DNA from: a bacterium
Lineage (GTDB): Bacteria; Patescibacteriota; WWE3; 2-01-FULL-39-13; JAQBTZ01
NCBI GenBank assembly: GCA_027624675.1
Contig: JAQBTZ010000002.1
Coordinates: 1-19,383 of the forward strand
Direction of reading: 5' to 3'
DNA: 19,383 nucleotides
Positions 6,314 through 8,050 of this stretch are shown piece by piece. Under the pieces are notes generated by a model. That model saw nothing but the letters and a program-made list of their open reading frames with translations. It searched no databases and was not told the DNA's origin. The position numbers and the translations under genes are program-made. Positions within the stretch are counted from its first letter, which is position 1, and each line of letters starts with the position of its first letter.

Positions 6314-6859
6314 ATGAATATTGTTTTAATTGGACCACAAGGGTCAGGTAAATCTACACAAGGAAAGTTAATATCAGATAATTTTGGTATGCCATATATA
6401 TCAACTGGTGATATGTTTAGGGAGATAATGACAGGAACGGATGAATTTTCTATAAGTATAAAGAAGATGATGGATGAAGGGGCCCTTATAGATGATGAAA
6501 CTACAAATAAAATCGTAAGACAACATTTAGAAAGAGGGAAATACTATAAAGGGTTTGTTGTGGATGGATACCCTCGAAGTGTTAATCAGTCGATGTCAGC
6601 ACCGTTTGTGTTGGATATAATTCTTCATATTAGGGTTCCAGAAAGCATCTCTATTGAAAGATTATTAAAAAGAGGTAGGTGGGACGATAACGAAGTAAAC
6701 ATTAGAAAAAGACTTTCACTATATAATCAAGAAACTGCGCCTATTATTGAGTACTGGAGAAAACACGACAAAGTAGTAGATATAGATGGGGTTGGTGGTG
6801 TAGATGAAATTCATCAGTTAATTTACGAGAAAATAACTAACTTAATAAATGGTAATTAG
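6314..6859 (+). CDS. adk: Adenylate kinase, short-LID form
   Basis: Adenylate kinase converts ATP and AMP to two ADP in the cytosol. The 181-residue product has the P-loop GPQGSGKST (7-15), the AMP-binding STGDMFRE segment (30-37), DGYPRS (84-89) and the catalytic arginine region RGRWDDN (120-126) followed by IRKRL (130-134). The LID domain is the short version with no zinc-binding cysteine insert, which explains a length below the roughly 214 residues of E. coli Adk. The gene follows secY/YbaB in the common secY-adk-map order and overlaps map by 11 bases. Confidence 0.96.
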   Translation: MNIVLIGPQGSGKSTQGKLISDNFGMPYISTGDMFREIMTGTDEFSISIKKMMDEGALIDDETTNKIVRQHLERGKYYKGFVVDGYPRSVNQSMSAPFVLDIILHIRVPESISIERLLKRGRWDDNEVNIRKRLSLYNQETAPIIEYWRKHDKVVDIDGVGGVDEIHQLIYEKITNLINGN

Positions 6860-7604
6860 TAGATTAGACAACAGTAAAGAGTTGTTGGCATTAAAAGAGG
6901 CTGGAAGAGTTAATGACACAATTAGACAGCAAGCTATAGAGATCACAAGGGTAGGTGTAAGTACACTAGAGATTGACACATTTATTAATAAACAAATATT
7001 AGAGAGCGGAATGAAGGCATCCTTTAAGGGTATTGATGGGTACAAGTTTTCCTCTTGTATAAATATAAACGAGGGAGTATTACACGGTATACCAAGTAAA
7101 AACTGTATTGTAGAAGACGGAGATATTGTAACTATTGACATGGGTGTTAATTATAAGGGGCTACATACCGACACTTCTTGGACTTTTGGGGTAGGTAAAA
7201 TATCAAAAAGTACGCAAAGATTTTTGGATATAGGTGAAGAAACATTGTTTATGGCTATTGATGAATGTAATGTTGGAGCAAGAATAGGTGATATTGCATC
7301 GACAATTCAGAGGAATATAGAAAAAAATGGGTATAATGTAATCAGAGAATTTGTAGGGCATGGTGTTGGATATGAATTGCATGAAGATCCGCAAATCCCC
7401 TGTGCTGGCAAGGCAAATACGGGATTGTTAATTAAAAATGGTATGGTATTAGCGATAGAGGTTATGTACACGCAGGGCAGTAGTCAGATAGTATTAACTA
7501 ATGATGGGTGGACTTATAATACAAAAGATGGTAAATTAGCTGGGATGTTTGAGCATACAATTGTTGTGACCGATAGTGGACCTGTAGTATTGACTAGTAA
7601 ATAG
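6849..7604 (+). CDS. map: Methionine aminopeptidase, type I
   Basis: It removes the initiator Met from nascent proteins. All catalytic residues are visible and fall at the same numbers as in E. coli MetAP: H79 (LHGIP), metal ligands D97 (TIDMG), D108 (HTDTSW), H171 (GHGVG), E204 (AIEVM), E235 (FEHT), plus H178. The usual T-I-E-P around the fourth ligand is A-I-E-V here, with the Glu kept. At 251 residues it is close to the short type I form without an SH3-like or zinc-finger N-terminal extension. The ATG lies inside adk (11-base overlap). A candidate intrinsic terminator starts about 55 bases after the stop. Confidence 0.97.
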   Translation: MVISRLDNSKELLALKEAGRVNDTIRQQAIEITRVGVSTLEIDTFINKQILESGMKASFKGIDGYKFSSCININEGVLHGIPSKNCIVEDGDIVTIDMGVNYKGLHTDTSWTFGVGKISKSTQRFLDIGEETLFMAIDECNVGARIGDIASTIQRNIEKNGYNVIREFVGHGVGYELHEDPQIPCAGKANTGLLIKNGMVLAIEVMYTQGSSQIVLTNDGWTYNTKDGKLAGMFEHTIVVTDSGPVVLTSK

Positions 7605-7641
7605 GACACCTGTTAAAATAGGCTGTGTTTAAAAAAGGACT

Positions 7642-7704
7642 GGTTACTTAAGAATATTAACCTGCAAGATAAAAGTAGGTTCATATTTTTTTTGTATCAG
7701 GTTG
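7642..7704 (+). promoter_or_regulatory. Terminator-like hairpin and alternative pairings in the infA leader
   Basis: A 7-bp stem AACCTGC (7659-7665) with GTAGGTT (7675-7681, one G-U pair) closes a nine-base loop and is followed by CATA and eight T residues (7686-7693), the form of a Rho-independent terminator. The same 5' arm can pair instead with GGTTA at 7642-7646 (with TAACC 7658-7662), which would prevent the terminator, or with CAGGTT at 7698-7703 (six pairs with AACCTG), which covers the only Shine-Dalgarno-like sequence before infA. It may simply end map transcripts or may be an attenuator. Both readings are inference from base pairing. Confidence 0.5.
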
Positions 7705-7708
7705 AATT

Positions 7709-7930
7709 ATAGCGATTAAGAAAGATATACTTGAAATAGAAGGAACAGTTTTAGAAACTTTACCTAATGCACAATTTAGAATTGAAACTGCAGAAGGTGA
7801 TAAGATTTTGGGACACACATCAGGAAAGATGAGAATGTTTAAGATAAAGATATTGCCAGGAGATAAAGTTAGATTAGAAGTAAGTAAGTACGATAAAACT
7901 AGAGGACGAATTACGTATAGATTTAAATAA
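7709..7930 (+). CDS. infA: Translation initiation factor IF-1, non-AUG start
   Basis: Reading the frame that ends in TAA at 7928-7930 gives a full IF-1: [20 protein letters not shown], then [24 protein letters not shown] and [12 protein letters not shown]-1 is an OB-fold protein that blocks the 30S A site during initiation. The frame has a TGA at 7703-7705 and no ATG, GTG or TTG before the conserved core. Possible starts are ATT 7706, ATA 7709 and ATT 7715. I chose ATA 7709 (73 codons, product starting M-A-I-K-K-D) because AGGT at 7699-7702 is spaced six bases upstream. A sequencing error is the alternative. The start is uncertain; the gene is not. Confidence 0.9.
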
Positions 7931-7936
7931 AATTTT

Positions 7937-8050
7937 ATGAAGGTTAGAGCAAGTGTTAAAACAATGTGTAGAGATTGCAAGGTTGTCCGCCGAAGTGGAG
8001 TAGTACGAGTAATATGTGTAAACCCTAAGCATAAACAAAGACAGGGTTAA
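7937..8050 (+). CDS. rpmJ: 50S ribosomal protein L36, zinc-binding
   Basis: A 37-residue product reading [19 protein letters not shown] and then [13 protein letters not shown]. The four zinc ligands C11, C14, C27 and H32 match the C-C-C-H form of L36, a small protein buried in 23S rRNA near the peptidyl transferase side. Its position between infA and rpsM is the standard one. The ATG is six bases after the infA stop. The zinc-free L36 paralogue used under zinc limitation in some bacteria is not seen here. Confidence 0.97.

Follow-up and report, generated by a model that had tools for sequence, protein, structure and literature searches.

How does a gene for translation initiation factor IF-1 begin when its reading frame offers none of the usual start codons? 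This question is posed by infA in the window, i.e. the whole analyzed stretch of 19,383 nucleotides, whose features are listed in Table 1. Judged from its sequence, the protein encoded by the frame is beyond doubt IF-1: The 74-residue translation scores 99.7 bits against the NCBIfam infA model TIGR00008 (cut-off 61.15), and the locus shows the gene order map-infA-rpmJ-rpsM, in which we take the name rpmJ from recognition of its sequence together with this order. It is also the only frame in the draft genome (84% complete) that matches IF-1. The frame is open from ATT 7706 to TAA 7928–7930 and, over positions 7700–7720, follows the codons GGT, TGA (7703–7705), ATT (7706), ATA (7709), GCG, ATT (7715), AAG and AAA. 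Upstream of the TGA it is closed a second time by TAG 7676–7678, and between this TAG and the conserved core it contains no ATG, GTG or TTG. A previous sequence-only reading of the window had claimed that infA has no usual start, that the TGA shuts the frame, that ATT 7706, ATA 7709 and ATT 7715 are the remaining options, and that a TTG at 7702 lies out of frame; all of this is borne out, with frame and coordinates exact. Its statement that no ATG occurs between the stop of map and rpmJ is wrong: An ATG at 7767 lies outside the IF-1 frame, and the ATGs at 7829 and 7835 are codons 42 and 44 of IF-1.

Table 1. Features at the infA locus, in coordinates of the window.
Feature	Position	Strand	Basis or remark
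map, type I methionyl aminopeptidase	6849..7604	+	TIGR00500, 256.3 bits (cut-off 171.35); upstream of infA
Candidate infA promoter TTGACT-18-TAAAAT, TG before the −10	7590..7619	+	10 of 12 consensus matches; inside the map end
Leader hairpin AACCTGC-9-GTAGGTT	7659..7681	+	followed by T8 at 7686–7693
Bases printed around the infA start	within 7680–7720		ATTATAGCG
Putative Shine–Dalgarno AGG(T), possibly extended AGGT(T)GA	7699..7705	+	sequence; duplex with the 16S 3′ end
TGA closing the infA frame	7703..7705	+	sequence
ATT, second-choice start	7706..7708	+	sequence; 4 nt after AGG
ATA, best candidate infA start	7709..7711	+	sister-lineage alignment, AGG spacing, ATA starts on infC in the class
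infA, IF-1	7709..7930	+	73 codons from ATA, then TAA; TIGR00008 match
rpmJ, ribosomal protein L36, ATG start	7937..8050	+	translation

An absent start codon may simply reflect a faulty sequence, in that a real usual start is hidden by a mistake in sequencing or assembly or by a minority variant, or that a one-base change would join the frame to TTG 7702 or TTG 7692. The fragmentation of the draft into 126 contigs, the T8 run and the usual start found in 75 of 77 infA loci speak for this explanation; the closest relatives, however, speak against it. The IF-1 of P0001, an entry that stands for six member sequences and lies on a 23,317-nt contig, is 95% identical, and its N-terminus M-C-F-F-V-P-I-K-I-I-A-N-K-K-D aligns gaplessly to the window from 7682 onward: F-F-V-P-I-K-I-I-A-N-K-K spans 7688–7720, where F-F-V falls on the T run plus GTA, and I-I-A on ATT ATA GCG. 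Between the T run and the core the register is thus unchanged, with no indel and no Met at this place. P0001 is no strain copy of our sequence but separated from it by a deep split, since the RpoA entry P0170, whose contig matches that of P0001 in length and is presumably identical with it, is 81% identical to the RpoA of the window. Deduced from amino acids alone, and therefore as lower bounds, at least five of nine nucleotides differ between P0001 and the window in 7697–7705 and at least four of 222 in 7706–7927; because the differences are dense in the former stretch and sparse in the latter, constraint begins at ATT/ATA. In P0001, the gene caller placed the start at a usual codon lying in frame farther upstream. 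As the stretch between this called start and ATT/ATA is unconstrained, we think that the call is wrong, although this relative may nonetheless start elsewhere.

A third lineage (P0002–P0005) has an IF-1 with 81–82% identity whose first residue falls exactly on ATA 7709. This residue is given as L in the jgi records and as M in the ena records, which is why we read the start codon of these genes as probably TTG. At this place, ATH-ATH is kept in P0001, P0002–P0005 have a probable TTG, and six other genomes of the order have ATG. Ala follows the residue aligned to ATA 7709 in all three lineages. Since P0001 reads I-I-A in unbroken register and the third lineage starts exactly at ATA 7709, a sequence error behind the missing start is unlikely. 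Contigs from closer by add an indirect argument: RpoA sequences 98–100% identical to that of the window are listed for 14 other contigs (P0160–P0165), and despite these, the E-ranked IF-1 matches listed include no full-length protein of more than 95% identity. What they do include are internally started fragments: P0006, of 56 aa, comes from two contigs, and P0121, of 31 aa, from a single contig of 4,018 nt. This pattern speaks indirectly for a real absence of a usual start, an argument that contig ends and the six members of P0001 could weaken. A search for related contigs with the map protein returned eight distant loci, none of this lineage, and these were left aside. Taken as a whole, the error explanation is distinctly unlikely, and the one-base error that the sequence-only reading had offered as an alternative finds no support in the genus-level relative on another contig, which keeps the same ungapped register and likewise lacks a Met there.

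Among the codons available, the start is most likely AUA 7709, which we chose because the sister lineage starts there and because AGG 7699–7701 sits 7 nt upstream; the corresponding spacings are 4 nt to ATT 7706 and 13 nt to ATT 7715. The earlier suggestion of a rare ATN start on infA is thereby supported and narrowed to a single codon. Initiation at AUU 7706, which would yield fMet-Ile-Ala-Ile-Lys... and resemble the start of Escherichia coli infC, is unlikely: This codon lies in frame directly after the stop and its Ile is kept in P0001, but it is just 4 nt from AGG and zero from the extended AGGTTGA, the sister lineage begins one codon later, and the invariant infC codon of the class is ATA rather than ATT. 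The predicted Shine–Dalgarno duplex of infA with the 16S 3′ end amounts to −4.6 kcal/mol and is weaker than those of all 23 infC ATA sites described below (median −10.2, weakest −5.2 kcal/mol). No 16S was found in this draft; the anti-Shine–Dalgarno was seen in the 16S of three other genomes (G001–G003). Both the low duplex energy and the lack of the same Shine–Dalgarno in P0001, in which P-I-K cannot encode AGG at that place, count against the AUA start and against strong infA expression.

Ribosomes might also reach infA from a short frame at 7692–7712 (TTG UAU CAG GUU GAA UUA UAG), so that IF-1 is made by reinitiation and not by direct initiation. The stop of this frame does overlap the ATA as AUAG. 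Yet its TTG 7692 follows the T run without a Shine–Dalgarno, the bases in between are changed in P0001, and a non-AUG restart would be needed anyway, which together make this route very unlikely.

Transcription from the candidate promoter listed in Table 1 would produce a leader about 80 nt long. The promoter scan returned four sites against 2.4 expected, and the site at 7590–7619 is by itself not above chance; of the 70 relatives with an ATG start, 56 show a promoter-like site no farther than 120 nt from infA, versus 10.9 in mononucleotide shuffles. Within the leader, the 5′ arm AACCTG of the hairpin can alternatively pair with CAGGTT 7698–7703 over the Shine–Dalgarno. The 46-nt hairpin has a z of −2.08 (3 of 200 shuffles as stable), and the stability of the whole 110-nt leader is unremarkable (z −1.46; 10 of 200). 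The terminator scan, whose loop limit of 8 lies below the 9-nt loop of this hairpin, found none in the leader, and the Rfam search gave no match except a tRNA. Among the 77 loci, 15 have a hairpin with a T-rich tail no more than 90 nt from infA, compared with 3.5 in dinucleotide shuffles. We regard a possible role of the leader hairpin as a lead only. In seven other loci (L011, L018, L021, L024, L035, L039, L116) a T-tailed hairpin ends 6–13 nt before the infA ATG; in L011, L024, L035 and L039 its 3′ arm, as read by eye, contains a Shine–Dalgarno-like GGAG or GGGGA, and there it may hide the ribosome site of infA.

Deviations from the standard reading of the codons were considered and rejected. 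Reading TGA as sense would supply no start, because the frame is blocked again at TAG 7676 and offers no ATG, GTG or TTG from there to the TGA; within the window, TGA terminates rpoA and copA. A reassignment of AUA to Met was checked on IF-1 only, where ATA 7727 falls on a nearly invariant Ile while the conserved Met residues 42 and 44 are encoded by ATG. Internal ATA codons number 137 in 25 genes. A-to-I editing of AUA was set aside, since the UACG that the known TadA target possesses is absent here. The draft yields 15 tRNA matches with one tRNA-Met(CAT) among them; as the anticodon stem of the latter looks elongator-like (letters read by eye), the initiator tRNA gene probably falls in a draft gap.

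How exceptional is this infA? Matches were obtained in 180 of 189 genomes, and 77 loci were inspected, a non-random sample made up of the 30 best matches, genomes of the same class, and some loci picked for short open frames. In this sample, 70 loci have an in-frame ATG at least seven codons before the conserved Gly, five have only GTG or TTG (G012, G029, G059, G072, G157), and two have none of the three: the present genome and G078. As all six other genomes of the same order in this comparison use ATG on infA, the missing usual start is confined to the closest lineages. The sequence-only reading had held that an ATG at this place in relatives would count against a rare start; such an ATG is indeed present in 70 of the 77 loci, outside the closest lineages, and we do not take it as a refutation because the closest lineages themselves are without ATG here. 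The locus in G078 (L012, near 1385–1470), which has no ATG, GTG or TTG at least seven codons before Gly, carries a GTG five codons before it and a five-codon ATG frame that ends just upstream, so that its status as a second case of infA without a usual start is ambiguous.

The gene for IF-3 in the same class provides the context in which an AUA start can be judged. We sought infC in 45 genomes and obtained a match in 43, the exceptions being this genome and G039. Counting a usual in-frame start at nine or more codons before the anchor, 24 of the 44 infC loci (one genome, G044, contributes two) have no usual start, 14 have only GTG or TTG, and six have ATG. One of the 24 is an artefact, namely the frameshifted infC of G006 (L078): In this genome the gene is split into overlapping halves in two frames (L078, L079), probably by an assembly error. 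Within family f12, for which 27 genomes were searched and 26 matched, 22 of the 26 have an ATA that precedes the anchor by 15 or 16 codons, and 20 of these 22 have no usual in-frame start. Of 27 loci, 22 have ATA as codon −15, while the codons at −14 and −16 occur in 16 forms each, and all 23 loci with the ATA signature (L062, L070, L072, L075, L134–L140, L142–L147, L149, L150, L153, L155–L157) show a 4-nt Shine–Dalgarno core within 20 nt. Because codon −15 is invariant against variable neighbors and always stands behind such a core, the AUA start on infC looks conserved in f12, and AUA starts look established in the class. Within the order, infC starts differ between genomes: In G005 an ATA is accompanied only by a distant TTG, TTG is found in G002 and G003, ATG in G004, and a distant ATG in G001. 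The two infC copies of G044 (L138, L157) lie on two contigs of a draft with 7% contamination. Neither infC nor rplT, which is expected beside it, was found in the draft of our genome, and since rplT is missing too, a draft gap is likelier than a loss of infC. A loss of IF-3 as the cause of lax starts was rejected, given the absence of rplT as well and the presence of infC in 20 of 20 other genomes of one search.

From these observations we consider it probable that infA is a working IF-1 gene translated from AUA 7709, a start that would keep IF-1 low and may place it in an IF-3-dependent loop as on infC. The AGG(T) 7 nt upstream would position the ribosome on AUA 7709, which the ordinary initiator tRNA would read with a mismatch at the third base. 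Near-cognate starts are those that IF-3, helped by IF-1, rejects; for this reason, the weak start would hold IF-1 synthesis low and probably expose it to IF-3 proofreading. Synthesis would then rise when IF-1 and IF-3 fall short relative to 30S subunits. The weak start may also have arisen by drift alone, with AUA being tolerated as little IF-1 is needed and no regulation being involved. In line with drift, the start is seen within the order in this lineage only, weak Shine–Dalgarno and weak codon coincide, and relatives of this population waver between TTG and ATH. Selection against non-AUG starts argues the other way, with AUG to AUU occurring once in 61,358 reconstructed AUG starts according to PMC5622118, as does the ATTATA block, which has been retained even though the RpoA sequences on the two sides of the split are 81% identical. 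We judge drift to be somewhat unlikely, though clearly worth keeping in mind, and prefer the regulated AUA start.

More tentatively, and with considerable doubt, we suggest that AUA serves as the start codon of both infA and infC in this Patescibacteria family; IF-1 and IF-3 would then be set jointly by how strictly 30S subunits discriminate against AUA, a two-gene self-tuning circuit. In open PMC papers we found no report of such a circuit and none that describes an AUA start on infA in a bacterium. If correct, the regulated AUA start would extend infC-type fidelity control to IF-1 and make a natural AUA initiation site available for study. There is also a practical consequence: As P0006 and P0121, with their internal starts, suggest, gene callers limited to ATG, GTG and TTG drop or truncate this essential gene; infC is exposed to the same trap across family f12.

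The textbook case of a factor that senses its own fidelity is the near-cognate start on infC: In E. coli, infC starts at AUU, reportedly described by Butler in 1987, and IF-3 represses its own start. The infA gene of the window resembles this system in that it encodes an initiation factor, probably begins at a near-cognate ATN codon and is proposed to be subject to factor-dependent rejection of that start; it differs in the gene, in the codon, which is AUA, and in that regulation is here a proposal. In family f12, infC likewise has an ATA start after a Shine–Dalgarno and belongs to the same class, but it is an IF-3 gene with a stronger Shine–Dalgarno, and infA in f12 mostly has ATG. PMC13009471 describes infC of Staphylococcus aureus with an AUA start, an extended Shine–Dalgarno and Ribo-Ret peaks, and puts the output of AUA and AUU sites at about 10% of that of AUG and, for ccpN in rich medium, at up to 30%. 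What the two share is a gene for a translation initiation factor with AUA as its start, here a proposed one; in contrast to the S. aureus case, the gene is infA and its AGG(T) is weak. The nearest parallel for infA itself comes from chloroplasts: A functional infA with a UUG start is found in Chlorella vulgaris and tobacco (Hirose 1999, as cited in PMC9845219), and a change of UUG to AUG raised its translation 300-fold (as cited there). The two are alike as IF-1 genes with an inefficient non-AUG start, in the window a proposed one, but UUG is a usual bacterial start, whereas the codon proposed here is AUA, and it stands in a bacterium.
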